36,393 nucleotides of DNA from Bacteroidota bacterium. GTDB taxonomy: Bacteria > Bacteroidota > Bacteroidia > Chitinophagales > Chitinophagaceae. The stretch spans positions 1-36,393 of the forward strand of contig JABDBG010000019.1 in assembly GCA_013288745.1 (NCBI GenBank). Direction: 5' to 3'. Below are positions 3,503 to 35,774 of this stretch, piece by piece; the stretch's first letter is position 1; every line of letters begins with the position of its first letter. The notes beneath the pieces are model-generated. The model saw only the letters and a program-made list of their open reading frames with translations, did not search any database and was not told where the DNA came from. The translations under genes were made by a program, and so were the position numbers.

Positions 3503-3649
3503 CTACTTCTTTTTAGGAGCAGCTTTCTTCTTTGGAGCAGCTTTCTTTTTAGGAGCAGCTTTCTTCTTTGGAGCAGCTTTTTTAGGAGCAGCCTTTTTTA
3601 CAGCTTTTTTTGGAGCCGCTTTTTTCGCAGCTTTTTTTGCAGTTGCCAT
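3503..3649 (-). CDS. histone H1-like lysine/alanine/proline-rich small basic protein
   Basis: This is a 48-residue frame from the ATG at 3649 to TAG at 3505-3503. It consists almost entirely of Lys, Ala and Pro: it begins MATAKKAAKKAAPKKA and ends in repeated AAPKKK units. No acidic or aromatic residues are present. The composition matches the C-terminal tails of eukaryotic histone H1 and bacterial H1-like (Hc1/AlgP-type) nucleoid proteins, so binding to DNA or RNA is the likely role. It has its own promoter candidate (3684-3714) and terminator (3448-3471), so it is probably a single-gene unit behind rpmA. The repeated codons in alternating AAG/AAA order argue for real coding. Role in the cell is inferred from composition only. 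Confidence 0.8.
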   Translation of the reverse strand: MATAKKAAKKAAPKKAVKKAAPKKAAPKKKAAPKKKAAPKKKAAPKKK

Positions 3650-3727: not shown

Positions 3728-4007
3728 TTATGCGATTGCTTCAACCAAAACTTCCATCGGTTTGATAGAAATTACGGTCTTATCGTTTCTTCCTTTTTTG
3801 TATTCTACAACTCCATCAGTCAATGCAAACAAAGTGAAATCTTTACCACATCCAACATTTTTGCCGGGATGATAAACTGTTCCACGTTGACGAACAATGA
3901 TGTTGCCTGATATAGCAGGTTGACCACCATAAATTTTTACACCTAGTCTTTTGCTTTGCGAGTCGCGGCCGTTCTTAACCGAGCCTTCACCTTTTTTTGT
4001 GTGCCAT
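3728..4007 (-). CDS. rpmA: 50S ribosomal protein L27, reading frame shifted by one base in an A7 tract
   Basis: L27 sits at the peptidyl-transferase centre of the 50S subunit. From the ATG at 4007 the frame reads MAHKK and then R and TGA, because the minus strand has seven A's (T7 at 3992-3998). Removing one A gives an uninterrupted 92-residue L27: [20 protein letters not shown] at the start, then VYHPGKN and [10 protein letters not shown], ending at TAA (3730-3728). The span of 280 bases equals 93 codons plus one, so only a single base is in excess. The gene follows rplU in the usual rplU-rpmA order. L27 is normally essential, so this is either a homopolymer sequencing error or a recoded gene; a true pseudogene is unlikely unless another copy exists. 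Confidence 0.9.
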
Positions 4008-4094: not shown

Positions 4095-4400
4095 TTAAGC
4101 GATTCCAGTTACTTTAATGTGAGTATACTGTGTACGATGTCCGTGTTTTTTACGGAAACCTTTTCTTCTTTTCATTTTAAAGGCAATTACTTTATCGCCT
4201 TGAATTAGGTCGGCAATTATTTCTGCCTTTACTACTGCTTTAACATCTTTTCCAGATAAAACTTTATCGCCAGAATGAGTGAACAGAACTTCTGCAAACT
4301 CTACTTTGTCGCCTTGTTTACCTTCAAGATGTGGTACATACAAGCTATCGCCTGCTTTAACCTTAAACTGTTGACCTGCTATTTTAACTACTGCTAACAT
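4095..4400 (-). CDS. rplU: 50S ribosomal protein L21
   Basis: L21 binds 23S rRNA in the large subunit. From the ATG at 4400 the product is 101 residues beginning MLAVVKIAGQQFKV, the standard L21 opening. An in-frame ATG three codons upstream (4409, adding MGN) is possible but would extend beyond the family's usual N-terminus and would overlap a promoter-like box. The C-terminal half holds the basic KMKRRKGFRKKHGHRTQYT segment that contacts rRNA. rpmA follows after an 87-base spacer, the usual L21-L27 arrangement. Confidence 0.95.
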   Translation of the reverse strand: MLAVVKIAGQQFKVKAGDSLYVPHLEGKQGDKVEFAEVLFTHSGDKVLSGKDVKAVVKAEIIADLIQGDKVIAFKMKRRKGFRKKHGHRTQYTHIKVTGIA

Positions 4401-11931: not shown

Positions 11932-14900
11932 ATGAAGAAATGTTTACACTTCTCTTTGTCGCTTGCACTTTACTGTCTACTATATTCGAATGCAAATGCA
12001 CAATGTACACCTGTAGCGGTTACAAAAACCAACAGCACAAAAGTGTATGTACATTATATGCCCTGGTTTGCAGGGCCTATAAATCCTAATGCAACAAGTT
12101 CATACACCTGGGGACCGCATTGGTATGAAAATGGCGGCGACAACTCCAATACTCCAAATACTTTTACAAGTGTTACTGATTATACGGGAACAAATGTTAC
12201 GGTACGTAATATTGACGGGCATTATCATCCATTGATCGGGCCATATGATGAAACTGATCCTTATGTAGAAGAGTACCATTTATTATTAATGAAATTATCG
12301 GGTATCGATGGTGTGATGATCGATTGGTATGGTTTAGCAGGGAATGGCGCAAGTGATGCAGGAGCTAACCAAACCAATACAGCTGCCATGATTTCTCAAA
12401 TGGGGAATTACGGACTTAAATACGGATTGATCGTTGAGGATAAGGCAATGACAAATATCGGAGCTAACTTAAGCTATGCTGCAAGTAATTATTTCACAGA
12501 TGCTAATTATATAAAATTAGGAGACATGAGGGCCGGCGATCCGAACGCAGGAGCTCCTTTGGTTGGAGTGTTCGGTCCAATAACCTATAAATCAGGAAGT
12601 AGCTGGGCCAATCTTGGAAATACAAAAGCTTTCTTAACACTATACGGCCAGGCCTGGAATACAGTGCAAGGTACTGCCGGCGGAACATTTATGTGGCCTT
12701 ATCCTCAAGCAGGGCAGGGTATTGTAAATGGTGTTCCAGCCTGGTACAATGATGCCAATACTTACTATAATGGTAGCTTCTATACAGGGGGTGCGCCGAA
12801 TGTGTTTAATAACAAACAAGAAAACGGAGTAGGTTTAGGAAACAATGTAGTATTAGGAACAGCATACCAAGGCTTTAATGATTTTTATGGCGGCGGCGGT
12901 GCAGACGCAGATGGTATAATTCCACGTAACTATGGAGCAAGCGGTAATACGTTAAGCACCATGTTAAATTTAGCGCAGGCAAATAAGGGAGAGATAGCGG
13001 GTATTCAAATTGCTACATGGAATGATTTCAGCGAAGGAACAATTATTGAACCAACGGTAGAATTCGGTTTTCAAAGTTTGGTTACCGTACAACAATTTAC
13101 GGGAGTTCCCTATACAGAAACTGATCTTAGATATATTGATACCTTATACATGCTAAGAAAGCAATATAATGGCAATAGTTCTATTGAAGCAGCCTTAGAC
13201 CAGGCTTCATGTGATATGAAGCAGTTGAATACTTCTGTAGGGGAAGCATTGCTTGCTTGTATTCGTAAAACAGGAACTACAAGCTGTGCAAGCGGTCCTG
13301 GAATGAGCAATCAATCTACCAGCGTTACAGTTGGCGGAACAGTTAATTATACGATCGTTGCTTCTACAGCAAACGGTGCAATAACGGGATACGGTGCAAC
13401 AGGATTGCCATCAGGTTTAAGTGTTAACACAACAACGGGCGTGATCAGCGGTACTACATTTGCTGATCCGGGAGTTTATAATATTACTATCAGTGCAACA
13501 AATAGCCATGCTACTTCATCAGCTACATTAACATTAACCGTTAATGAGACAAGTACATTGCAACCTTATCTAGGTACAATTGCTCAAATCCCCGGCGTTA
13601 TACAAGCAGAAAATTATGATTATGGCGGACAAGCGCTTGCTTATAATGATAATGATGCGATTGATAATGGGGCTGCTACGGGATGTACATTTAGAACAGG
13701 CGAAGGTGTAGATATTGAAAATTGTGCAGATGCAGGTGGAGGGTATGATGTAGGCTGGACAAATGCCGGAGAATGGATGAAGTACACCGTAAATGTTAAT
13801 ACTGCAGGAACGTATACAATGACCGGCCGCGTAGCTACAGGAGGTGGTACGGCTACGACTAAGTTTCATGTGATGTTAGGGGCTACAAATATTGGGACCA
13901 TTACCGTTCCTAATACAGGAGGATGGGCTACTTTTCAAACAAGTGCAAACGTTACAACACCTGCACTTACAACAGGGCAGCAGACATTACAAATTTTTGA
14001 AGATTCTGGAAATTACAACATCAATTATTTAACATTTACGCTCAATGCACCTGCTAAACCTGTTATAACATCCAACACTGCAACAGGTACAGTTGGTACA
14101 GCGTTTACGTACACAATAACTGCAACAAATACACCAACAAGTTATACTGCGTCTGCATTACCAGCAGGTTTATCTTTCAATACAGCAACAGGTGTAATTA
14201 GTGGTACGCCAACAACAGCGGGTGGCCCTACAACAGTGAATATCACCGCAACAAATTCCGGTGGCACAGGAACAGGTACTGTATCTATTACAATAAATCC
14301 TCCGGCGCCGGTAGTTACAACGAATACTGCGACGGGTACATTCGGCACTGCATTTACATACACTATCAGTGCGACAAACACACCGACAAGTTATACAGCA
14401 ACACCGTTACCAGGTGGTTTGACATTTAATACAGCAACAGGTGTTATCAGTGGCACGCCAACAACAGCGGGTTCTACAACGGTAAACATTACAGCCACAA
14501 ATGCAGGAGGAACAGGAACGGGTACAGTAACGATCACTATCAGTGCGGCAAAACCAGTAGTAACAACAAATACAGCAACTGGCACAGTTGGTACAGCATT
14601 TACCTATACGATCAGTGCGACAAATACACCAACAAGTTATACTGCAACACCATTGCCAGCAGGATTAACATTTAATACGGCAACAGGTGTTATCAGTGGA
14701 ACGCCAACAACGGCTGGCCCTACAACAGTAAATATCAGTGCAACAAATGCAGGCGGGACAGGGACAGGAACAGTTACAATCACGATCTCCAATCCGGCCC
14801 CACCGGTAATATCAAGCGGCGCTACTGCCAATGGTGTTGTAGGTACTGCGTTTGCAGGTTATACAATAACTGCAAGCAATACACCAACAAGTTATGGAGC

Positions 14901-17900
14901 AAGCCCATTACCTCCAGGTCTAACTATTAATACGGCGACAGGTGTCATCAGCGGAACACCAACAACAATAGTAGGCTCACCTTTCTCAGTAACTATTACT
15001 GCAACGAATGCGGGAGGTACAGGATCAAAAACACTAACGATCACAATTACAAATCCGCCCGCTCCTGTAATAACAAGTACGAATACAGCAACAGGAACAA
15101 TCGGGGTGGCATTTACATATACAACCACAGCTACAAACAGTCCAACACAGTATAATGCAAGTGGCTTGCCTGCAGGTCTAACTATTAATACTTCAACAGG
15201 AGTAATAAGTGGTACGCCAACTGCGATCGGAACATTTACAGTTGTTGATACTGCAACTAATATAGGAGGTTCTGGCACTTTATCAATAACGATAACAATT
15301 TCAAATATCCCTGTACCTGTAATAACAAGTGCGGCTACAGCAAGTGGAACAGTCCTTTCATCTTTTGCAGGATATACAATTACCGCCACAAATAGCCCAA
15401 CAAGTTTTTCAATTGGAGGAACATTGCCAAGTGGGTTAACATTTAATGCAGCAACAGGTGTTATCAGCGGAACGCCGACAGCGGCAGGAACGTTTATTGA
15501 TACAGTGAAAGCAACGAACGGTGGTGGTACAGGAACAAAAGTTTTAACGTTCACTATTGCAGCATTGCCATCATGTGGTACATCAATGATCGTAAATGCA
15601 ACAACTACTCCTATTATTGATGGAACGATAGACCCGGTTTGGTCTACAGCACCAAAGAATACACTTACAAAAACGATTAGCGGAACAATACAAACAGGAT
15701 CTACCTGGCAGGCAATGTATGATGCTACGAATTTGTACGTATTGATCCAGGTAAAAGATGCTAACGTTAGTAACGTTGGAACAAATATTTATGATCAGGA
15801 TGGAATAGAACTTTTCCTTTCAGGAAATAATAGTAAAGCAGGAGCGTATACTGCAATGGATCATCAATACCGCTTTAATTGGGGAATGCCAAATACGATT
15901 GCAAATATAACAGGTAATACAGGTTCAACAACAGGTATCACTTATGCTATCCCATCTGTAACAGGCGGATATTTGTTAGAAGCATCAATACCATGGACAA
16001 CAATTGGGGGACCAGCACCAGTTAATGGCGCACCGATAGGATTTGATGTAAATTTAAATGATCAGCAAAATGCGTCGGGTGCAAGAGATGCAACAGTAGG
16101 ATGGAATGGAACTGCTACTGACGATTATATGAATACGGCCTCTTTTGGAACTGTTAATTTAACTATTTGTAACGCACCAACGCCTGCCCCTGTTGTAACA
16201 ACTAATACCGCAACAGGTACAGTTGGTACAGCGTTTACTTACACAATCAGTGCAACAAATACACCAACAAGTTATACCGCAACGCCATTACCAGCAGGAT
16301 TAACATTCAATGCAGCAACAGGTGTTATCAGTGGAACGCCGACAACGGCTGGCCCTACGACAGTAAATATCAGTGCAACAAATGCAGGCGGAACAGGAAC
16401 TGGAACGGTAACGATCACGATCAATCCTGCGGCACCGGTTGTAACAACCAACACTGCAACAGGTACAGTTGGTACAGCGTTTACTTACACAATCAGTGCA
16501 ACAAATACACCAACAAGTTATACCGCAACGCCATTGCCAGCAGGATTAACATTCAATACAGCAACAGGTGTTATCAGTGGAACGCCGACAACGGCTGGCC
16601 CTACGACAGTAAATATCAGCGCAACAAATTCAGGTGGAACAGGAACTGGAACAGTAACGATCACGATCAATCCTGCTAAACCGGTTGTAACAACAAACAC
16701 TGCAACAGGCACAGTTGGCACAGCCTTTAGTTATACAATCAGTGCAACAAATACACCAACAAGTTATACCGCAACGCCATTGCCAGCAGGATTAACATTC
16801 AATACAGCAACAGGTATTATTAGTGGAACACCAACAACAGTTGGTCCAACAACAGTAAATATCAGCGCAACAAATGCAGGTGGAACAGGAACTGGAACAG
16901 TTACAATCACGATCAATCCTGCTAAACCGGTTGTAACAACCAACACTGCAACAGGCACAGTTGGCACAGCCTTTAGTTATACAATTAGTGCAACAAATAC
17001 ACCAACAAGTTATACTGCAACACCATTGCCAGCAGGATTAACATTCAATACAGCAACAGGTGTTATCAGTGGAACACCAACAACAGTTGGTCCAACAACA
17101 GTAAATATCAGTGCAACAAATGCAGGCGGAACAGGAACTGGAACAGTAACGATCACGATCAATCCTGCGGCACCGGTTGTAACAACCAACACTGCAACGG
17201 GTACAGTTGGTACAGCGTTTACTTACACAATCAGTGCAACAAATACACCAACAAGTTATACCGCAACGCCATTGCCTGCAGGATTAACATTCAATACAGC
17301 AACAGGTATTATTAGTGGAACACCAACAACAGTTGGTCCAACAACAGTAAATATTAGCGCAACAAATGCAGGTGGAACAGGAACTGGAACAGTTACGATC
17401 ACGATCAATCCTGCGGCGCCGGTTGTAACAACGAACACTGCAACGGGTACAGTTGGTACAGCGTTTACGTACACAATAACTGCAACGAATACACCAACAA
17501 GTTATACAGCAACACCATTGCCTGCAGGTTTAACGTTCAATGCAGCAACAGGTGTTATCAGCGGAACGCCAACAACGGCTGGCTCTACAACAGTAAATAT
17601 CAGCGCAACAAATGCAGGTGGAACAGGAACTGGAACAGTTACGATCACGATCAATCCTGCTAAACCGGTTGTAACATCAAATACAGCAACAGGTACAGTT
17701 GGTACAGCGTTTACGTACACAATAACTGCAACAAATACACCAACAAGTTATACAGCAACGCCATTGCCTACGGGTCTAACATTCAATACGGCAACCGGTG
17801 TTGTTAGTGGAACGCCAACAACGGCTGGTTCTACAACAGTAAATATCAGCGCAACAAATGCAGGTGGAACAGGAACTGGAACAGTTACGATCACGATCAA

Positions 17901-20900
17901 TCCTGCTAAACCGGTTGTAACATCAAATACAGCAACAGGTACGGTTGGTACAGCGTTTACTTACACAATAACTGCAACAAATACACCAACAAGTTATACC
18001 GCAACGCCATTGCCAGCAGGATTAACATTCAATACGGCAACCGGTGTTATCAGTGGAACGCCGACAACGGCTGGTCCTACGACAGTAAATATCAGCGCAA
18101 CAAATGCAGGCGGAACAGGTGCAGGAACAGTAACGATCACGATCAATCCTGCGGCGCCGGTTGTAGCATCAAACACAGCAACAGGTACGGTTGGTACAGC
18201 ATTTAGTTATACAATCAGTGCAACAAATACACCAACAAGCTATACAGCAACGCCATTACCTGCAGGATTAACATTCAATGCAGCAACAGGTGTTATTAGT
18301 GGAACGCCAACAACGGCTGGTCCTACAACAGTAAATATCAGTGCAACAAATGCAGGCGGAACAGGAACTGGAACAGTAACGATCACGATCAATCCTGCGG
18401 CACCGGTTGTAACAACTAACACTGCAACAGGTACAGTTGGTACAGCGTTTACGTATACAATCAGTGCAACAAATACACCAACAAGCTATACGGCAACACC
18501 ATTGCCAGCAGGATTAACGTTCAATGCAGCAACAGGTGTTATCAGTGGAACGCCAACAACGGCTGGTTCTACAACAGTAAATATTAGCGCAACAAATGCA
18601 GGCGGAACAGGAACGGGAACAGTAACGATCACGATCAATCCTGCGGCACCGGTTGTAACAACTAACACTGCAACAGGTACAGTTGGTACAGCGTTTACGT
18701 ATACAATCAGTGCAACAAATACACCAACAAGCTATACGGCAACACCATTGCCAGCAGGATTAACGTTCAATGCAGCAACAGGTGTTATCAGTGGAACGCC
18801 AACAACGGCTGGTTCTACAACAGTAAATATTAGCGCAACAAATGCAGGTGGAACAGGAACGGGAACAGTAACGATCACAATCAATCCTGCAATACCTGTA
18901 GTAACTTCTGCAACATTGAGTGGTACGACAGGTACGGCATTTAATTATACAATTAGTGCTACAGGTTCGCCAACAAGTTATACAGCAACGCCATTGCCTG
19001 CTGGCTTAACATTGAATACTGTAACAGGTGTTATTAGTGGAACGCCAACAACAGCAGGTCCTACTACTGTGAATGTAACCGCTACTAATATTAGCGGAAC
19101 AGGATCAGGCGTTCTAACAATAAATATTACAACAACTTTACCGTCACCCCCAGTAGTGACATCAGGTTCTGTAACAGGAACAGTAGGTACAGCATTCAGT
19201 TATTCTGTTAGTGCAACAAATAGCCCAACTGGTTATAGTGCTTCATCATTACCTGCAGGTTTAAGCATAAATAGTTCTGGAGTAATCAGTGGTATACCAA
19301 CAGTTGCGGGTGGCCCAACTTCTGTCACAGTTACTGCAACAAATGCGGGTGGTAGTGGCTCTGGAACAATAACGATCACGATCAATCCAGCGATACCGGT
19401 TGTAACAACCAATACAGCAACAGGTGCAGTTGGTACAGCATTTACGTACACAGTCAGCGCAACGAATACGCCAACAAGTTATACAGCAACACCATTGCCA
19501 GCAGGATTAACATTTAATGCCGCAACAGGTATTATTAGTGGAACACCAACAGCGGTGGGTACTACTACAGTAAATATTTCAGCAACAAATGTTAGCGGTA
19601 CAGGAACCGGAACGGTAACGATCACGATCAATCCTGCGACACCGGTTGTAACATCAAACACAGCAACAGGTACAGTTGGTACAGTCTTTAGTTATACAAT
19701 GAGTGCAACAAATACACCAACAAGTTATACAGCAACGCCATTACCTGCAGGATTAACATTCAATACAGCAACAGGTGTTATCAGTGGAACGCCGACAACG
19801 GCTGGTCCTACAACAGTAAATATCAGCGCAACAAATGCAGGCGGAACTGGAACTGGAACGGTAACGATCACGATCAATCCTGCTAAACCGGTTGTAACAT
19901 CAAATACAGCAACGGGTACGGTTGGAACAGCGTTTACTTACACAATAACTGCAACAAATACACCAACAAGTTATACTGCAGCACCATTGCCTGCGGGTCT
20001 AACATTTAATACAGCAACCGGTGTTGTTAGTGGAACGCCAACAACGGCTGGTCCTACAACAGTAAATATCAGTGCAACAAATGCAAGCGGAACAGGTACA
20101 GGAACAGTAACGATCACGATAAATGCTGCGTTACCAGGAGCTCCGGTTGTAACAACAAACACGGCAACAGGTACGGTTGGTACAGCATTTAGTTATACAA
20201 TCAGCGCAACAAATACACCAACAAGTTATACAGCAACGCCATTGCCTGCAGGATTAACATTCAATACAGCAACAGGTGTTATCAGCGGAACGCCAACAAC
20301 GGCTGGTCCTACAACAGTAAATATCAGTGCAACAAATGCAGGTGGAACAGGAACGGGAACAGTAACGATCACAATCAATCCTGCGGCACCGGTTGTAACA
20401 ACCAACACTGCAACAGGTACAGTTGGAACAGCGTTTAGTTATACAATTACTGCAACAAATACACCAACAAGTTATACCGCAACACCATTGCCAGCAGGTT
20501 TAACATTCAATACAGCAACAGCTATTATTAGTGGAACGCCAACAGCGGCTGGTCCTACGACAGTAAATATCAGTGCAACAAATGCAGGTGGAACAGGAAC
20601 GGGAACAGTAACGATCACGATCAATCCTGCGGCACCGGTTGTAACAACCAACACTGCAACAGGTACAGTTGGCACAGCCTTTAGTTATACAATTACTGCA
20701 ACAAATACACCAACAAGTTATGCCGCAACACCATTGCCTGCAGGATTAACATTCAATACAGCAACCGGTGTTATCAGTGGAACGCCAACAGCGGCTGGTC
20801 CTACAACAGTAAATATCAGTGCAACAAATGCAGGTGGAACAGGAACGGGAACAGTAACGATCACAATCAATCCTGCTAAACCGGTTGTAACATCAAATGC

Positions 20901-22437
20901 AGCAACAGGTACGGTTGGAACAGCGTTTACTTACACAATAACTGCAACAAATACACCAACAAGTTATACTGCAACACCATTGCCTGCGGGTCTAACATTT
21001 AATACAGCAACAGGTGTTATTAGTGGAACGCCAACAACGGCTGGCCCTACGACAGTAAATATCAGTGCAACAAATGCAGGCGGAACTGGAACGGGAACAG
21101 TAACGATCACGATCAATCCTGCGGCGCCGGTTGTAACATCAAATGCAGCAACAGGTACGGTTGGTACAGCATTTATCTATACGATCACTGCGACAAATAC
21201 ACCAACAAGCTATACCGCAACACCATTGCCAGCAGGATTAACATTCAATACGGCAACAGGTGCTATTAGCGGAACGCCAACAACAACGGCTGGCCCTACG
21301 ACAGTAAATATCAGTGCAACAAATGCAGGCGGAACAGGTACAGGAACAGTAACGATCACGATTAACCCTGCTGCAATACCAGTACCGGTTGTAACATCAA
21401 ATACGGCAACGGGCGTAGTTGGTACAGCATTTAGTTATACAATCAGTGCAACAAATGCACCAACAAGTTATTCTGCAACACCATTACCGGCAGGTTTATC
21501 ATTCAATACCACAACAGGCGTTATTAGCGGAACTCCTACAGTAGCTGCTACAACTGTAGTAACAATAACTGCAACAAATGCAAGCGGAACAGGAACAGGT
21601 ACCGTATCAATAACGATCGATCCTCAACTGATGATAACAAGCAATGGAGCTGTAAGTGGTATTATTGGCGCACCATTTTCATATACTATTTTATCTAACA
21701 CTGGCACAAGCTATAGTTCAACGACTTTACCTCCGGGTTTAACATTAAACGGTGCAACAGGCGTTATTAGTGGAACGCCAACATTAATCGGCGTATACTC
21801 AGTGACGATTACTGCTACCAACGCAAGTGGTTCAGCAAGTAATATTTTAGAAATAACTATCACGAATCAAGCGCCTGTTATTACCAGCATTAATACGGAA
21901 ACAGTTGATGCAGGGGAAGATTTCTCCTATACGATCACTGCAACAAATACACCAACAAGCTTTACTGCTACAGGGTTACCAGTAGGCATAACATTTAATT
22001 CTACAACGGGTGAAATAAGCGGTTCAACATCAATTACAGGAGTTTATACTGTGAGACTGGGAGCTACTAATGCAGCAGGAACAGGAACTGAAACATTAAC
22101 TATTACTGTAGTAAGTTCCGATTCTCATTTCCCGCCTTCTATAAGCCCTGTTCTGGCGCCTAACCCGGTAAGAGTAGATCAGCTAATTCAAGTGTCAACT
22201 CCACAATGGAATGTAGGACAAGCAGTAAGTATCCAGGTATATAATTACTTAGGTGTATTAGCAGCTAGTGAAAATAATATTATAGTTACGGCGATCGTAT
22301 TGCTTGAGGATAGAACAAGCACACCATATAGCGGACCTGGAGTAGGCATTAATCTTCCTAATTTGATCGCAGGTGATTATATCTTAGTCTTAAGAAGCAG
22401 TGATGGTAGAATTGTCAAGAAATTTAGGGTACAGTAA
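11932..22437 (+). CDS. giant T9SS-exported GH71/99-like protein with CBM6, CBM9 and 31 Ig-like repeats
   Basis: This 3501-residue protein is probably a cell-surface or secreted polysaccharide-degrading enzyme. Residues 1-24 are a signal peptide (cut after ANAQ). Residues about 35-430 form a catalytic domain like glycoside hydrolase families 71/99: VHYMPWF near 40, MIDWYG, and WNDFSEGTIIEP at 363-374, matching the WNEWHEGT..IEP active-site pattern, with E368 and E373 as candidate catalytic acids. One Ig-like unit follows, then a CBM6 (about 547-705, YDVGWTNAGEW), six He_PIG units, a CBM9-like domain (about 1217-1413, IDGTIDPVW), 24 more He_PIG units and a C-terminal T9SS type A sorting domain (from about 3398, APNPV..., ending KKFRVQ). 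GH71/99 members cut alpha-1,3-glucan or alpha-mannan; the substrate here is not determined. It has its own promoter and terminator. Confidence 0.9.
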   Translation: MKKCLHFSLSLALYCLLYSNANAQCTPVAVTKTNSTKVYVHYMPWFAGPINPNATSSYTWGPHWYENGGDNSNTPNTFTSVTDYTGTNVTVRNIDGHYHPLIGPYDETDPYVEEYHLLLMKLSGIDGVMIDWYGLAGNGASDAGANQTNTAAMISQMGNYGLKYGLIVEDKAMTNIGANLSYAASNYFTDANYIKLGDMRAGDPNAGAPLVGVFGPITYKSGSSWANLGNTKAFLTLYGQAWNTVQGTAGGTFMWPYPQAGQGIVNGVPAWYNDANTYYNGSFYTGGAPNVFNNKQENGVGLGNNVVLGTAYQGFNDFYGGGGADADGIIPRNYGASGNTLSTMLNLAQANKGEIAGIQIATWNDFSEGTIIEPTVEFGFQSLVTVQQFTGVPYTETDLRYIDTLYMLRKQYNGNSSIEAALDQASCDMKQLNTSVGEALLACIRKTGTTSCASGPGMSNQSTSVTVGGTVNYTIVASTANGAITGYGATGLPSGLSVNTTTGVISGTTFADPGVYNITISATNSHATSSATLTLTVNETSTLQPYLGTIAQIPGVIQAENYDYGGQALAYNDNDAIDNGAATGCTFRTGEGVDIENCADAGGGYDVGWTNAGEWMKYTVNVNTAGTYTMTGRVATGGGTATTKFHVMLGATNIGTITVPNTGGWATFQTSANVTTPALTTGQQTLQIFEDSGNYNINYLTFTLNAPAKPVITSNTATGTVGTAFTYTITATNTPTSYTASALPAGLSFNTATGVISGTPTTAGGPTTVNITATNSGGTGTGTVSITINPPAPVVTTNTATGTFGTAFTYTISATNTPTSYTATPLPGGLTFNTATGVISGTPTTAGSTTVNITATNAGGTGTGTVTITISAAKPVVTTNTATGTVGTAFTYTISATNTPTSYTATPLPAGLTFNTATGVISGTPTTAGPTTVNISATNAGGTGTGTVTITISNPAPPVISSGATANGVVGTAFAGYTITASNTPTSYGASPLPPGLTINTATGVISGTPTTIVGSPFSVTITATNAGGTGSKTLTITITNPPAPVITSTNTATGTIGVAFTYTTTATNSPTQYNASGLPAGLTINTSTGVISGTPTAIGTFTVVDTATNIGGSGTLSITITISNIPVPVITSAATASGTVLSSFAGYTITATNSPTSFSIGGTLPSGLTFNAATGVISGTPTAAGTFIDTVKATNGGGTGTKVLTFTIAALPSCGTSMIVNATTTPIIDGTIDPVWSTAPKNTLTKTISGTIQTGSTWQAMYDATNLYVLIQVKDANVSNVGTNIYDQDGIELFLSGNNSKAGAYTAMDHQYRFNWGMPNTIANITGNTGSTTGITYAIPSVTGGYLLEASIPWTTIGGPAPVNGAPIGFDVNLNDQQNASGARDATVGWNGTATDDYMNTASFGTVNLTICNAPTPAPVVTTNTATGTVGTAFTYTISATNTPTSYTATPLPAGLTFNAATGVISGTPTTAGPTTVNISATNAGGTGTGTVTITINPAAPVVTTNTATGTVGTAFTYTISATNTPTSYTATPLPAGLTFNTATGVISGTPTTAGPTTVNISATNSGGTGTGTVTITINPAKPVVTTNTATGTVGTAFSYTISATNTPTSYTATPLPAGLTFNTATGIISGTPTTVGPTTVNISATNAGGTGTGTVTITINPAKPVVTTNTATGTVGTAFSYTISATNTPTSYTATPLPAGLTFNTATGVISGTPTTVGPTTVNISATNAGGTGTGTVTITINPAAPVVTTNTATGTVGTAFTYTISATNTPTSYTATPLPAGLTFNTATGIISGTPTTVGPTTVNISATNAGGTGTGTVTITINPAAPVVTTNTATGTVGTAFTYTITATNTPTSYTATPLPAGLTFNAATGVISGTPTTAGSTTVNISATNAGGTGTGTVTITINPAKPVVTSNTATGTVGTAFTYTITATNTPTSYTATPLPTGLTFNTATGVVSGTPTTAGSTTVNISATNAGGTGTGTVTITINPAKPVVTSNTATGTVGTAFTYTITATNTPTSYTATPLPAGLTFNTATGVISGTPTTAGPTTVNISATNAGGTGAGTVTITINPAAPVVASNTATGTVGTAFSYTISATNTPTSYTATPLPAGLTFNAATGVISGTPTTAGPTTVNISATNAGGTGTGTVTITINPAAPVVTTNTATGTVGTAFTYTISATNTPTSYTATPLPAGLTFNAATGVISGTPTTAGSTTVNISATNAGGTGTGTVTITINPAAPVVTTNTATGTVGTAFTYTISATNTPTSYTATPLPAGLTFNAATGVISGTPTTAGSTTVNISATNAGGTGTGTVTITINPAIPVVTSATLSGTTGTAFNYTISATGSPTSYTATPLPAGLTLNTVTGVISGTPTTAGPTTVNVTATNISGTGSGVLTINITTTLPSPPVVTSGSVTGTVGTAFSYSVSATNSPTGYSASSLPAGLSINSSGVISGIPTVAGGPTSVTVTATNAGGSGSGTITITINPAIPVVTTNTATGAVGTAFTYTVSATNTPTSYTATPLPAGLTFNAATGIISGTPTAVGTTTVNISATNVSGTGTGTVTITINPATPVVTSNTATGTVGTVFSYTMSATNTPTSYTATPLPAGLTFNTATGVISGTPTTAGPTTVNISATNAGGTGTGTVTITINPAKPVVTSNTATGTVGTAFTYTITATNTPTSYTAAPLPAGLTFNTATGVVSGTPTTAGPTTVNISATNASGTGTGTVTITINAALPGAPVVTTNTATGTVGTAFSYTISATNTPTSYTATPLPAGLTFNTATGVISGTPTTAGPTTVNISATNAGGTGTGTVTITINPAAPVVTTNTATGTVGTAFSYTITATNTPTSYTATPLPAGLTFNTATAIISGTPTAAGPTTVNISATNAGGTGTGTVTITINPAAPVVTTNTATGTVGTAFSYTITATNTPTSYAATPLPAGLTFNTATGVISGTPTAAGPTTVNISATNAGGTGTGTVTITINPAKPVVTSNAATGTVGTAFTYTITATNTPTSYTATPLPAGLTFNTATGVISGTPTTAGPTTVNISATNAGGTGTGTVTITINPAAPVVTSNAATGTVGTAFIYTITATNTPTSYTATPLPAGLTFNTATGAISGTPTTTAGPTTVNISATNAGGTGTGTVTITINPAAIPVPVVTSNTATGVVGTAFSYTISATNAPTSYSATPLPAGLSFNTTTGVISGTPTVAATTVVTITATNASGTGTGTVSITIDPQLMITSNGAVSGIIGAPFSYTILSNTGTSYSSTTLPPGLTLNGATGVISGTPTLIGVYSVTITATNASGSASNILEITITNQAPVITSINTETVDAGEDFSYTITATNTPTSFTATGLPVGITFNSTTGEISGSTSITGVYTVRLGATNAAGTGTETLTITVVSSDSHFPPSISPVLAPNPVRVDQLIQVSTPQWNVGQAVSIQVYNYLGVLAASENNIIVTAIVLLEDRTSTPYSGPGVGINLPNLIAGDYILVLRSSDGRIVKKFRVQ
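14053..15565 (+). repeat. He_PIG Ig-like repeat array I (6 units)
   Basis: Six tandem units of about 82-86 codons lie between the CBM6 and CBM9-like domains. Each carries the pattern LPaGLtfN.aTGvISGTPT..G....TATN.gGtG. The last three units (from about 14800) are clearly diverged, whereas the first three resemble array II. Confidence 0.9.
16189..22110 (+). repeat. He_PIG Ig-like repeat array II (24 units, 246-base period)
   Basis: Twenty-four tandem units follow the CBM9-like domain. The first eleven start at 16189 and recur exactly every 246 bases (82 codons) to 18894, with very high DNA identity. Two diverged units (18895-19395) interrupt the series. A second near-identical run continues to about 21370, and the last three units are diverged. 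Linkers alternate between NPAAPVV, NPAKPVV and variants. The domains probably form a long rod that holds the enzyme away from the cell. Confidence 0.93.
18403..18894 (+). repeat. most recent tandem duplication within array II
   Basis: Units 18403-18648 and 18649-18894 are identical over the first 240 bases except for two silent changes: GGC/GGT at 18603/18849 and ACG/ACA at 18633/18879. The last two codons form a variable linker. Confidence 0.9.
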
Positions 22438-24554: not shown

Positions 24555-27500
24555 ATGAAAAGAATATTGTTTGCATTCTTTCTATTTGTATCGTCAGTTG
24601 CTTATGCGCAATTGAGTAATAGTTGGATTGATTACAGTAAAACTTATTACAAATTTAAGCTTGCACAAAGTGGGTTATATCGTATCAATGAATCTGTATT
24701 ATCTTCAGCAGGCTTAAGCAGCATCCCTGCAGAACAATTTCAATTATGGAGAAATGGCAAGCAGGTAAGAATATATACATCCGTTCCAACAGGTCCGTTA
24801 GGCAGTACTGATTATATAGAATTTTGGGGTGAGATGAATGATGGGAAAGCGGATAAAACACTCTATCGCGATTCTGCTTTTCAGTTGAATGACCATTACA
24901 GCATGAGCTCAGATTCTGCTGCTTATTTTTTAACGGTAAATCCTGCAGGGGGCAATGCTGATTATACAACCGTTGCTAACAACACAAGCACTAACGTGCT
25001 GCCGGCAGAACCGTATTTTATGCGAAAGATCGAAACATTATTTAGAGACCAGGTGAATTTGGGTGCTCAGGTAGATCTTGGCGGAGAGTATATTTATTCT
25101 TCGGAATACGACAGAGGAGAAGGTTGGACCAGCAATCCTATCGCAGGCTGCTGTCTTAATAAAACTTTTTCAGGATTAAATACTTATACCGCAGGCCCAA
25201 CTAATAATGTTTCTTTTCATATCACAAGCAATGGTCTTGATACTGCTGTCAGGGATTTTCAAGTAAAATTATTTAGCACTGTTATATTTGATACTACGTA
25301 TCATGATTTTAATATCATTGATAAAACAATAAATAATATCGCATTGTCAACGTTAGAGAATTCTGACAATGCCTCTGTTTCTATTGGCACTGTTAGTAGT
25401 AATAATGCCGCTGATCAGATAGTTGTAGGAACTTTTTCATTTACTTATCCATCAACATTTAATTTTAACGGACAGACAAATTTTTATTTTGAGTTGCCTG
25501 CCGCACCTTCAGGCAATTATCTTGTAATAAATAATTTTAATAACAATGGTATTGCACCTGTTTTGTATGATCAAAATACAGGCAACAGGTATATAGGGGA
25601 TATTACTACTCCCGGGCAAATAAAATTCGAATTGCCTGCTTCGATGGATCCATTGCGAAGATTTTTATTAGTAAGTCAGGATCCCGGTAATATCGCTACG
25701 ATTAATTCACTTACTTCCAGAACATTTGTAGATTATAGTAATCCTGCTAACCAGGGCAACTATATTATCATAAGCAATCCCGTATTATATAATGATGGAT
25801 CAAGCCATAATTATGTAGATCAATATAGAGCATACAGGGCTTCTTCTCAGGGCGGTAGTTACAATGCAAAAGTTTTTCCAATAAGTGAATTAACCGATCA
25901 GTTTGCGTTTGGTATAAAAAATCATCCTGTAGCAGTTCGTGATTTTATACGATATGCGTATAATAATTTTGCAGTTAAACCTCAATACGTTTTTATCATT
26001 GGTGGTGGGGTCAGCGCATTAAACATTGCGCAAAGTGAAACTTCGCCACTAGCTGATCAACTTGATCTTATCCCAACTTTTGGGTATCCAGCATCAGATG
26101 TTTTACTTGCTTGTAATCCGGGTGAAAATGTGCCGCTTGTACCTATTGGCCGGCTATCAGCAGTTACAGGAACTGAAGTAGGATACTATTTACAAAAAAT
26201 GCAGGATTATGAAGCTGCACAGGCTTCAACAAGTCAAACAGTCACAGATAAACAATGGATGAAAAACTTCATTCACCTGTCTGGCGGTAATGATCCAAGC
26301 GATAACAGTGTGTTTACATTATACCTGAATGGCTATAAAAATATAGCCCAGGATACTTTGTTTGGCGCCAACGTGCAAACTTTTGTAAAAACAAGTACTG
26401 CTTCTGTTCAACAAGCTAACGGATCAACAATTACACAATTAATAAATAATGGCCTTGGGTTTATCGGTTACTTCGGCCATGCTTCCGGTACAACTTTAGC
26501 ATATAATCTTGGTACTCCGCAATCATATACGAATCTTGATAAATATTATTTCTTTGATGTGAGCGGTTGTATTGCTGGAGATAATTATGAATTGGATCCT
26601 AACCGTTTGCTAGGTTATACAACACTTTCTGAAGAATATGCTTTGGCTAACAATCGTGGAGCTATTGGCTTTTTAGGAGGCAGTTATTTAGGAGTTTCAA
26701 ATTATCTTGATAATTACAACACGATCTTTTATAATGAATTTTGTAAAAGTATGTATGGTAATACTGTTGGAAATCAATTGCAACAGGTATGCCAGACAAC
26801 AATGTTGAACACGCCAGGTTTTACAGATAATTCTCAAAATTCATTTTTAACAAGAGCTAATTTAGAAGAAGTTAATTTAGATGGGGACCCTGCATTAAAA
26901 ATCAATTCATTTGCATTGCCTGATTATGATATAGAAGATCAATTAATAAAAATAAGTCCATCGGTTATTTCTATAGCGGATAGCAGTTTTGCTCTCACAG
27001 TTAAGTGGGCAAATCTTGGCCGTGCAACAGATGATTCGATACGTATATTGATCGAACGTAAATTGCCCAATGGAACTATTCAGGTTTTATATAATCAAAT
27101 GATACTGGCCACCAAATACAGCGATTCTGTAAATCTTGAAGTACCTATTCATTCATTAACTGATAATGGAACGAATCAAATAATAGTATCGTTGGATGCT
27201 GATAATAAAGTAACGGAATTATCTGAAACCAATAATCTTTTCACAAAAAGCTTTCAAATTTTCGCTACGGAATTATCTCCCGTTTATCCTTATAATTATG
27301 CTATTGTTAATCAGCAAAACATCACTTACTCAGCTTCTACTGCAAACCCTTTAGGTCCGCTAAGTAAGTATATGATGGAAATAGATACTACAGCATTATT
27401 TAATTCACCTTTTTTGAAACAATATAGTTCAACAGGAATAGGGGGCGTTATTCAATTTACACCAGGTAATATCACGTTTACAGATAGTACCGTCTATTAT

Positions 27501-29705
27501 TGGAGAACGGCAATTATTCCTGCAAGCCCTACTGTACCAACAGTGTGGACCAGTTATTCTTTTGTTTATTTACCAACTGGTGGTACAGGGTTTAATCAAT
27601 CTCATTATTACCAACATCTTCAAAGTACTTATTCCAATATTGTTTTAAATTCAAATCGGGAGTTTACATTCCCGCAACAAAATAGTGATCTAAGGATTAC
27701 AACAGGTATATATCCTTACACTAATTATGACAATATAAGTGATCAGTTAAACGGCAATCAATTGGATTTTTACGGATGTACCTATAATGCAATACAATTT
27801 TATGTCTACGATAGCGCCACACTTCAGCCTTTATCTAATTACAATGTGCCGCCCGGATATACCAATGGACGTTTCGGAAGCCAGGCTGTATGTGTTGGAC
27901 CGAGGGACTTTTTCGAGTTTTATTATCCTGACCCTACCGCTAGAAAAAATGCTATAAATTTTCTCGATAGTATTCCCAGTGGAGATTATGTATCTATTAC
28001 CAATCTTGGAGCTACCTCCAATACTTCTTTTATAAGTGACTGGCAATCCGATCAGGCTACATTGGGAGCGGGTAATGATCTGTATCATAAACTAAAAGCA
28101 TTAGGTTTTACAGATATAGATAGCTTTACACAGAATATTCCTTTTTTGTTTTTTTATCAAAAAAATGTAAGTGGTTTCGCGCCAAAGCAATTTGTAGGAA
28201 CTGATCCCACCAGCAGAATAAATCAGGATTTTACATTGTCATCAAGACTCGACTCAGGGACAATACAATCTCCGGTATTTGGCCCCGCGAAAAACTGGAC
28301 GAGCCTGCATTGGAACGGCAAAAGCATAGATCCTACGGCCAGTGATCTGGTGCAGGTTCAGGTGTATGGCGTTAAAAGTGATGGCTCACAAACTTTACTT
28401 ACTACGGTTTCACCCGCAACGGATACATCACTTTCCTTTATTAGTGCAGCAACATATCCATACCTGCAGTTAAAAATGCTCAACTCCGATGTGCAATATG
28501 CAACACCCAATCAATTGCAATACTGGAGAATAAATGCAGATTATGTTCCCGAAGGGGCAATTGCACCTAATATTTTATATACGATGCGGGATACTATTGC
28601 CTTCGGACAAAAAATTCCTGTGGCCATTGCATTTAAAAATGTTAGTCAGGTTTCTTTTGATAGCGTACAGGTATCTTTTGTAATAACGGATGCTAATAAT
28701 ATAGCCCACACGATCCCGATACCGAAAGGAAAAATACTGATATCGGGAGATACACTATCAATACGCGATACCATTGATTCAAAATTGTATCCGGGTAACA
28801 ATACTTTATATATAATGTTCAATCCGAATAATGATCAACCGGAGCAATATTTATTTAATAATTTCTTATACGCAAACTTCTATGTGGCAGTAGATAATAC
28901 CAATCCATTATTGGATGTAACTTTTGATGGCGTTCATATTTTGAATAAGGATATTGTGTCAGCCAAACCAAATATATTAATTAAGCTAACAGATGAAAGC
29001 AGATTTCTTGCTATTACAGATACAAGTTCTATGACCGTACAGGTTCAGTTTCCTCCGTATTATAATGGTAGTGGTTCTGTAACACCGCCTTTACGAACCT
29101 ATACTTTTGGAGATTCAATGCGTTTCATTCCTGCAGACCTGTCTAAGGGAAACAATGTTGCCAGTATTGAATTTACACCTTCTTTCCCGATGGATGGAAC
29201 CTACCAGTTAATTGTAACGGGTAAAGATCCTTCGGGTAATCCGGCAGGAAGCCTGTCATATAGGGTAAGTTTTAACGTCATCAACAAAGAGATGATATCA
29301 AACCTATTGAATTATCCCAACCCCTTTACTACTTCTACAGCGTTCGTATTTACGATAACAGGTACACAAATACCTCAAAATATGAGGATCCAGATCTTAA
29401 CCATAACGGGTAAAGTGGTAAAAGAAATTACACAAAATGAACTAGGTCCGATCCATGTAGGCACTAACATTACAGAGTATAAATGGGACGGAACCGACAG
29501 ATACGGACAAAAATTAGCAAATGGTGTTTATCTGTACAGGGTTCTTACTAATTTAAATGGCAAGTCTCTGGATAAATATACGGGGGTAGTGGCAGAGCCA
29601 TCAAATGAGGACGGCAAGATTTCGAATACAACAATAACCAGTGGGCTCGGCACTACAGATCAATATTTTACAAAAGGCTATGGAAAAATGTATTTAATGA
29701 GGTAA
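24555..29705 (+). CDS. C25-peptidase T9SS sortase-like protein (PorU2-like)
   Basis: PorU-type gingipain-family peptidases cleave the C-terminal sorting domain from T9SS cargo and attach the cargo to surface lipopolysaccharide. The 1716-residue protein has a signal peptide (1-19, VAYAQ) and a beta-rich N-terminal region. A C25 domain (about 400-780) carries the catalytic pair H642 (GYFGHASG) and C672 (DVSGCIAGD). CARDB-like segments follow near 800-900 and 1345-1440. A FlgD-like C-terminal domain begins at NYPNPF (1586-1591), and the protein ends YFTKGYGKMYLMR. It is about 550 residues longer than classic PorU (about 1160), which together with the adjacent PorV-like gene suggests the PorU2 group. 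The family assignment is strong; the exact cargo and reaction are inferred. Confidence 0.82.
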   Translation: MKRILFAFFLFVSSVAYAQLSNSWIDYSKTYYKFKLAQSGLYRINESVLSSAGLSSIPAEQFQLWRNGKQVRIYTSVPTGPLGSTDYIEFWGEMNDGKADKTLYRDSAFQLNDHYSMSSDSAAYFLTVNPAGGNADYTTVANNTSTNVLPAEPYFMRKIETLFRDQVNLGAQVDLGGEYIYSSEYDRGEGWTSNPIAGCCLNKTFSGLNTYTAGPTNNVSFHITSNGLDTAVRDFQVKLFSTVIFDTTYHDFNIIDKTINNIALSTLENSDNASVSIGTVSSNNAADQIVVGTFSFTYPSTFNFNGQTNFYFELPAAPSGNYLVINNFNNNGIAPVLYDQNTGNRYIGDITTPGQIKFELPASMDPLRRFLLVSQDPGNIATINSLTSRTFVDYSNPANQGNYIIISNPVLYNDGSSHNYVDQYRAYRASSQGGSYNAKVFPISELTDQFAFGIKNHPVAVRDFIRYAYNNFAVKPQYVFIIGGGVSALNIAQSETSPLADQLDLIPTFGYPASDVLLACNPGENVPLVPIGRLSAVTGTEVGYYLQKMQDYEAAQASTSQTVTDKQWMKNFIHLSGGNDPSDNSVFTLYLNGYKNIAQDTLFGANVQTFVKTSTASVQQANGSTITQLINNGLGFIGYFGHASGTTLAYNLGTPQSYTNLDKYYFFDVSGCIAGDNYELDPNRLLGYTTLSEEYALANNRGAIGFLGGSYLGVSNYLDNYNTIFYNEFCKSMYGNTVGNQLQQVCQTTMLNTPGFTDNSQNSFLTRANLEEVNLDGDPALKINSFALPDYDIEDQLIKISPSVISIADSSFALTVKWANLGRATDDSIRILIERKLPNGTIQVLYNQMILATKYSDSVNLEVPIHSLTDNGTNQIIVSLDADNKVTELSETNNLFTKSFQIFATELSPVYPYNYAIVNQQNITYSASTANPLGPLSKYMMEIDTTALFNSPFLKQYSSTGIGGVIQFTPGNITFTDSTVYYWRTAIIPASPTVPTVWTSYSFVYLPTGGTGFNQSHYYQHLQSTYSNIVLNSNREFTFPQQNSDLRITTGIYPYTNYDNISDQLNGNQLDFYGCTYNAIQFYVYDSATLQPLSNYNVPPGYTNGRFGSQAVCVGPRDFFEFYYPDPTARKNAINFLDSIPSGDYVSITNLGATSNTSFISDWQSDQATLGAGNDLYHKLKALGFTDIDSFTQNIPFLFFYQKNVSGFAPKQFVGTDPTSRINQDFTLSSRLDSGTIQSPVFGPAKNWTSLHWNGKSIDPTASDLVQVQVYGVKSDGSQTLLTTVSPATDTSLSFISAATYPYLQLKMLNSDVQYATPNQLQYWRINADYVPEGAIAPNILYTMRDTIAFGQKIPVAIAFKNVSQVSFDSVQVSFVITDANNIAHTIPIPKGKILISGDTLSIRDTIDSKLYPGNNTLYIMFNPNNDQPEQYLFNNFLYANFYVAVDNTNPLLDVTFDGVHILNKDIVSAKPNILIKLTDESRFLAITDTSSMTVQVQFPPYYNGSGSVTPPLRTYTFGDSMRFIPADLSKGNNVASIEFTPSFPMDGTYQLIVTGKDPSGNPAGSLSYRVSFNVINKEMISNLLNYPNPFTTSTAFVFTITGTQIPQNMRIQILTITGKVVKEITQNELGPIHVGTNITEYKWDGTDRYGQKLANGVYLYRVLTNLNGKSLDKYTGVVAEPSNEDGKISNTTITSGLGTTDQYFTKGYGKMYLMR

Positions 29706-34568: not shown

Positions 34569-35774
34569 TTATTTTTTATGCAATATGGTATGTCCTAATT
34601 TATCTCTTTTAGTAGTAAGGTATTTTTCATTATGTGCATTTGGTTTTATTTCAATAGGTACAGTATCTACCACTTCTAAACCATAGCCCAATAAGCCTGC
34701 ACGTTTGCGGGGATTATTGCTTATCAATTTCATTTTATTAATACCGAGGTGACGTAATATTTGTGCACCAACGCCGTAATCTCTTTCATCCATTTTAAAA
34801 CCTAATTCTAAATTAGCTTCAACGGTATCTCTGCCTTGTTCTTGTAACTTGTACGCTTTTAATTTGTTTAATAAGCCGATACCACGACCTTCCTGGTTCA
34901 TATACAATACCAAACCTTTGCCTTCAGCTTCTATCATTTGTAAAGCAGCATGTAATTGATCACCGCAATCACAGCGCAGCGAGCCTAAAATATCTCCGGT
35001 AACACAACTGCTATGTACTCTTACTAAGACAGATTCGTCTTTTGTCCATTCGCCTTTTTTTATGGCAAGATGTATCTCACCGGTGGTAATTTGTTCAAAA
35101 GCTATTAGTTCAAACATGCCATATTTAGTAGGCATTTGTACACGTACTTCTTCCTTTATCAGTGTTTCTTTGCTGAGTCTGTAGGTGATAAGGTCTTTTA
35201 TAGAAATGATCTTAAGATCGAATTTTTTAGCGATCTCGATTAGTTCAGGAAGGCGCGCCATACTTCCATCTTCATTCATGATCTCTACCAATACGCCTGC
35301 TGGTTCAAAACCGGCAAGTCTGGCTAGGTCAATCGTCGCTTCTGTATGTCCTGATCTTCTTAAAACACCACCTTTTTTTGCTTTTAACGGGAATATATGT
35401 CCGGGCCTCCCCAAAATTTCAGGGGTAGTAGCAGGATCAATCAATGCCTGGATAGTTTTAGCTCTGTCATGAGCCGAAATACCTGTAGTACAGCCATGAC
35501 CCAAAAGATCAACGCTGATGGTAAAGGCTGTTTCGTGCAAAGCCGTGTTAGATTGTACCATTGGTGTAAGCTCCAATTCTTTGCAACGTTCTTCAGTAAG
35601 TGGAGCACAGATCAATCCGCGGCCATATTTGCTCATAAAATTGATGATCTCAGGCGTTACCGTATTGGCTGCTATAACAAAATCACCTTCATTTTCTCTA
35701 TCCTCATCGTCCACCACAATTACCATTTTACCATTTTTAATATCTTTAATGGCACTTTCTATACTATCTAACAT
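34569..35774 (-). CDS. ribBA: bifunctional 3,4-dihydroxy-2-butanone-4-phosphate synthase / GTP cyclohydrolase II
   Basis: This is a 401-residue fusion catalysing the two entry steps of riboflavin synthesis: ribulose 5-phosphate to dihydroxybutanone phosphate (RibB) and GTP to the pyrimidine precursor (RibA). The RibB half (1-205) has DEDRENEGD (23-31), GHGCTTGIS and [10 protein letters not shown]. The RibA half has the zinc ligands C257, C268 and C270 ([10 protein letters not shown]), the GRGIGLLNK segment and [12 protein letters not shown] (329-340, with D329 and R331 as the catalytic pair by analogy with E. coli RibA). Both halves look intact. The length is standard for the fusion. No other rib gene is adjacent and no FMN riboswitch was recognised upstream. 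Confidence 0.96.

Follow-up and report, generated by a model that had tools for sequence, protein, structure and literature searches.

Seven A instead of six in the rpmA gene of a draft Chitinophagaceae genome: probably an isolated consensus error

Why does the gene for the 50S ribosomal protein bL27, rpmA, run out of frame after five codons in a draft genome of the Chitinophagaceae, and do the cells make L27 at all? The gene lies on contig JABDBG010000019.1 of assembly GCA_013288745.1 (G000 below); the window is the whole stretch of DNA that was analysed, 36,393 nucleotides. The locus and its neighbours are composed as follows, G436 being the relative with the best DNA match:

3728..4007, minus strand: rpmA (50S ribosomal protein bL27), off frame after five codons by one surplus A (PF01016 match, sequence, translations)
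3992..3998, minus strand: the A7 tract of rpmA (plus strand: T7); among the 373 family genomes with a matching rpmA start, the usual six-base spacing is present in 370 (by subtraction)
3987..3989, minus strand: premature TGA, in frame with the rpmA start codon (sequence)
3728..3991, minus strand: rest of the L27 frame, open from GGT onwards, including the stop (translation, codon comparison)
4095..4400, minus strand (ATG at 4400): rplU (ribosomal protein L21), intact, directly upstream of rpmA (PF00829; full-length alignment to G436)
3503..3649, minus strand: short, repetitive Lys/Ala/Pro-rich ORF of 48 aa with A6-A7 runs, directly downstream of rpmA (no Pfam family)

A first interpretation, made from the letters alone (the sequence-only reading), had held that the L27 frame is stopped early by a TGA behind the A7 and that one A fewer gives the whole protein, and both claims are borne out. 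On the minus strand, rpmA begins with ATG GCA CAC AAA AAA AGG TGA, with the ATG at 4007-4005 and the AGG at 3992-3990. Past the A7, the +1 frame encodes a complete L27 and is free of stops until the terminal TAA, whose last base is 3728: from two codons before GGT it gives 89 residues that end in VEAIA, and with M-A-H these make up the 92 residues expected. Another start codon that rescues the L27 frame can be ruled out: from the upstream stop to the tract the frame reads TAA AAC AAT AAA CAA TGG CAC ACA AAA AAA GGT, and there is no ATG, GTG or TTG between the TAA and the A7. A second intact rpmA, which had also been considered, was not found in a profile search of G000: the locus is the single PF01016 match (117.4 bits at a cut-off of 20.5, starting from profile position 2), with the reservation that the missing part of the 71.67% complete assembly could hide a further copy. 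One copy per genome was also the result in all 56 genomes in which a search gave a match.

The comparison with relatives, to which the sequence-only reading had pointed, gave a clear picture: among 394 family genomes, only the window's own has the seven-base spacing. The search used a pattern for the start of rpmA, ATGGCNCAYAA-N(2-6)-GGNGARGG, which matched in 373 of these genomes (the remaining 21 are outside the counts), and the longer spacing is absent from the other 372. The number with normal spacing was obtained by subtraction and not by individual inspection, as only some of the matches were listed; among those listed, at least G255 has the right spacing, yet lacks the two Lys codons. 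Three genomes have a shorter spacing: G123, where the match looks unrelated and a normal copy is present as well, and G170 (69% complete) and G401 (92% complete), in which rpmA is one base short at the Lys-Lys tract. In both of the latter the L27 frame is open just after the tract (loci L077 and L254 for G170, L255 for G401). Start and protein of G170 are those of L077 (JABDFW010000039.1, 2487 on); in L255 the L27 frame ends earlier than in the relatives, and the locus ends 421 bases past the start. Of 110 other fetched rpmA loci (30 and 80 from two retrievals, with some sequences present twice), only L077 is affected, being one base short; the other 109 have an intact tract region. In G436 (one contig), which gave the best DNA match of 93 genomes of the genus, the tract has six A; its alignment to the window runs from rplU to a PHP/HHH gene in a single piece of 2,654 bases at 74% identity. 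All relatives compared are other species than that of the window's genome.

The frame behind the tract had been described as perfectly conserved. This goes too far, but good conservation is indeed what we observe: the downstream part of L27 has 84% amino-acid identity to G436, and from GGT onward pN is 0.086 versus a pS of 0.50-0.56 relative to the two nearest fetched rpmA copies. The pN/pS ratio is 0.14-0.19 to the eight nearest copies, with a median of 0.19 over 124 relative loci. Judged from these codon comparisons, the L27 frame past the tract is under purifying selection and free of decay, and the normal constraint on L27 evidently lasted until very recently. Constraint up to such a recent time is required by an error in the data and by a very young mutation alike.

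If the seven A were real and the protein made, the expression of a ribosomal protein gene would depend on a frameshift. The functional reading assumes a programmed +1 slip at AAA-AGG before the TGA, or productive slippage of RNA polymerase, with normal amounts of L27 as the result. It would profit from a P-site AAA that is able to re-pair after a +1 move and from the intact downstream frame; nevertheless, we regard it as very unlikely. Programmed +1 frameshifting is known from prfB and Ty1. The rpmA site resembles them in a P-site codon that could re-pair in +1 and in a stop soon after the slip site, whereas it differs in that the tract is not conserved, AGG is not rare and the KKGE codons explain the context. 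Four observations speak against a +1 site. First, the frame transition is not kept in orthologues, as it is confined to the window itself among the 394 family genomes. The indels in G170 and G401 run the opposite way, and a conserved recoding site was rejected on this ground. Second, inserting one further A on paper creates AGG followed by TGA in 94 of the 139 intact loci of relatives, so that the supposed signal tells us little; the AGG-TGA context simply follows from the conserved Lys-Lys-Gly-Glu codons. Third, AGG does not look like a slow or hungry A-site codon: with 4.94 per thousand it is the fourth of six Arg codons in 424 long ORFs, a statement on codon usage that leaves tRNA supply aside. 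Finally, no stimulator was detected in the RNA downstream, where the 102 bases past the tract have a z of 0.42 and are equalled or outdone in folding by 133 of 200 shuffled sequences; a downstream stimulatory structure is, however, not always required for programmed +1 frameshifting. The Ty1-like recoding at AGG that the sequence-only reading had offered as an alternative does not survive the comparison with relatives. No published case of a frameshifted or recoded rpmA was found among the matches listed in our literature search.

Slippage on the tract itself deserves separate consideration. The heptamer A_AAA_AAA is known for a -1 slip. It is contained in the A7 of rpmA, but a -1 slip misses the L27 frame, for which +1 or -2 is needed; likewise, a transcript would have to undergo a net loss of one A or a gain of two to restore L27. 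In the part of PMC3711429 available to us, A_AAA_AAA is among the heptamers implicated in programmed frameshifting, which is in favour of recoding, and An with n > 7 is given for transcriptional slippage sites, a length that the A7 does not reach. The accessible sections of PMC5574713 cut both ways: insertions in transcription at homopolymeric (A/T) runs climb exponentially with run length, but in the transcriptome data deletions are rarely in homopolymers. Moreover, A7 runs are frequent in G000, with 342 in the same 424 long ORFs, where slippage would be a burden; these ORFs were picked for length, so that their intactness is built in. Two further A7GG runs (35053-35061 and 35371-35379) are present in the ribBA ORF of the window, which is intact and aligns to G436 over its full length; these sound runs also count against the reading of the rpmA tract as an error. 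A low-level rescue of rpmA by slippage is possible, although it is not indicated, and the same holds for slippage of RNA polymerase at the A7, another possibility raised from the letters, in support of which nothing was found. It seems highly improbable that the A7 is both genuine and fixed, with slippage on the tract as the only source of L27, which would tie its output to the fidelity of the ribosome or of RNA polymerase. In the insect endosymbionts Buchnera and Blochmannia, poly(A) frameshifts are rescued by slippage. Their cases (cf. PMC3017870) are similar to ours in that a conserved gene carries a frameshift in an A tract and has an open frame behind it; they are dissimilar in that the tract of rpmA has only seven A and that no other conserved gene seems to be split, as described below.

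Is the assembly error-prone in general? G000 comprises 1,956,043 bases in 84 contigs. For a frameshift test, the ORFs from 1,600,000 bases of G436 were compared by tblastn with 822,668 bases of G000, which yielded 163 non-overlapping conserved genes with 62,353 residues and 187,029 bases, in which there are 566 A/T runs of at least six. In this comparison, which is blind to shifts in the first few codons, i.e. to the type seen in rpmA, not one of the 163 genes was found to be split by a frameshift; of simulated single-base duplications placed within the central 70% of every gene, 143 of 163 were found. rpmA is itself one of the 163 genes, its alignment beginning at residue 4 of the relative, and a separate check of 33 genes whose alignment begins only at residue 5 or beyond turned up no case. 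A smaller first run (0 of 127 split) and the reverse direction (0 of 126) gave the same picture. A generally error-prone assembly is thus rejected for the sampled 822,668 bases, and the result argues against a technology with pervasive homopolymer errors, which also makes any single error less expected. As far as tested, the rpmA indel is an isolated event in an otherwise clean draft.

Our preferred reading, to which we assign a probability of roughly 0.75, is that the seventh A is such an isolated and sporadic error in the consensus of a draft genome. A single base would have been inserted into the consensus at the tract that encodes Lys-Lys of L27; the extra A presumably stems from sequencing or assembly rather than from the cell, and the genome is probably metagenome-assembled. 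Most likely, the tract has six A in the living cells, and the L27 that they make is ordinary. The homopolymer error favoured by the sequence-only reading therefore stands as the best-supported explanation, with seven A only here and six in G436. One correction applies: the assembly is not generally noisy at homopolymers, so that the error, if it is one, is a lone event. The rpmA tract has the marks of a consensus error, a change that is private to one assembly and a conserved frame on both sides, and the private spacing, the six A of G436 and the purifying selection past the tract all point in this direction. The one-base changes at the same tract in G170 and G401 may be counted for an error as well; they could also be read as signs of a natural indel hot spot, one of them being in G401, which is listed as 92% complete. 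Singleton frameshifts of draft genomes offer the closest parallel: a one-base homopolymer change in a conserved gene, private to one assembly, with G170 and G401 affected at the same tract. A difference is that no change of this kind occurs elsewhere in the tested genes of G000. In the portion of the PMC3711429 survey at hand, BLASTp-validated singleton frameshifts are expected to be sequencing errors and not genuine indels. As it stands, the matter is one of annotation only, as rpmA would be called a pseudogene or missed in G000.

The surplus A might, however, be real: a recent +1 insertion, private to the sequenced cells or to a single strain among them, that damages or kills rpmA. L27 would then perhaps be lost, or small amounts of it would come from chance slippage at the A7. 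We consider this unlikely. The lack of frameshifts in the other tested genes means that the site could be true sequence, and the changes in G170 and G401 fit in with it. According to the section of PMC3812077 that we could use, indels naturally concentrate at homonucleotide repeats, and a laboratory selection on the M.HaeIII gene showed bypass of frame-shifting indels where the repeats were 3-8 bases long. In the text available from a preprint (PMC12871816), E. coli does not strictly need rpmA, but its loss is very costly: growth is slow, and saturated cultures without rpmA suffer a 10,000-fold drop in CFU. It is because of this cost that we rank an error above the fixation of a null allele. 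The missing decay of the L27 frame past the tract and the absence of the longer spacing from all other matching family genomes also speak against a real insertion.

The same part of the preprint (PMC12871816) reports that deletion of ssrA lifts the CFU of E. coli without rpmA 100-fold, and one might ask whether the loss of L27 is tolerated here through a parallel loss of trans-translation, i.e. of tmRNA and SmpB. In G000, which is 72% complete, there is no match for SmpB and no tmRNA over the cut-off, the best match being a tRNA-Ser. By comparison, a genus sample of 39 genomes, the window's own among them, has SmpB in 36 and a tmRNA above the cut-off in 30. We find this explanation scarcely credible. 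In G004, smpB is flanked, by reading of the locus, by accD-like and sdaA-like genes, and both of these neighbours were not found in G000 either, in searches that had no positive control. Their absence suggests a missing stretch of the 72% assembly, which is the plain reading of the lack of smpB and tmRNA, and loss of trans-translation was rejected as the reason on these grounds. Moreover, G003, listed as 100% complete, has neither an SmpB match nor a tmRNA over the cut-off and yet an intact rpmA, and the purifying selection on the L27 frame argues in the same sense.

A few minor features of the locus and of the window may be mentioned. A Lys-rich frame similar to the short ORF downstream of the window's rpmA is also present 3' of rpmA in L255. 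On the plus strand, a protein of 1716 residues with a Peptidase C25 domain is encoded at 24555-29705; we take this domain to be as in sortase-like proteins of type IX secretion (PorU). An ORF of 3501 residues (11932-22437, plus strand) contains about 22 tandem units of 246 bases, with the repeats at 16192-21624, as well as 31 He_PIG Ig-domain stretches and the carbohydrate-binding modules CBM9 and CBM6, and looks like a large surface protein.
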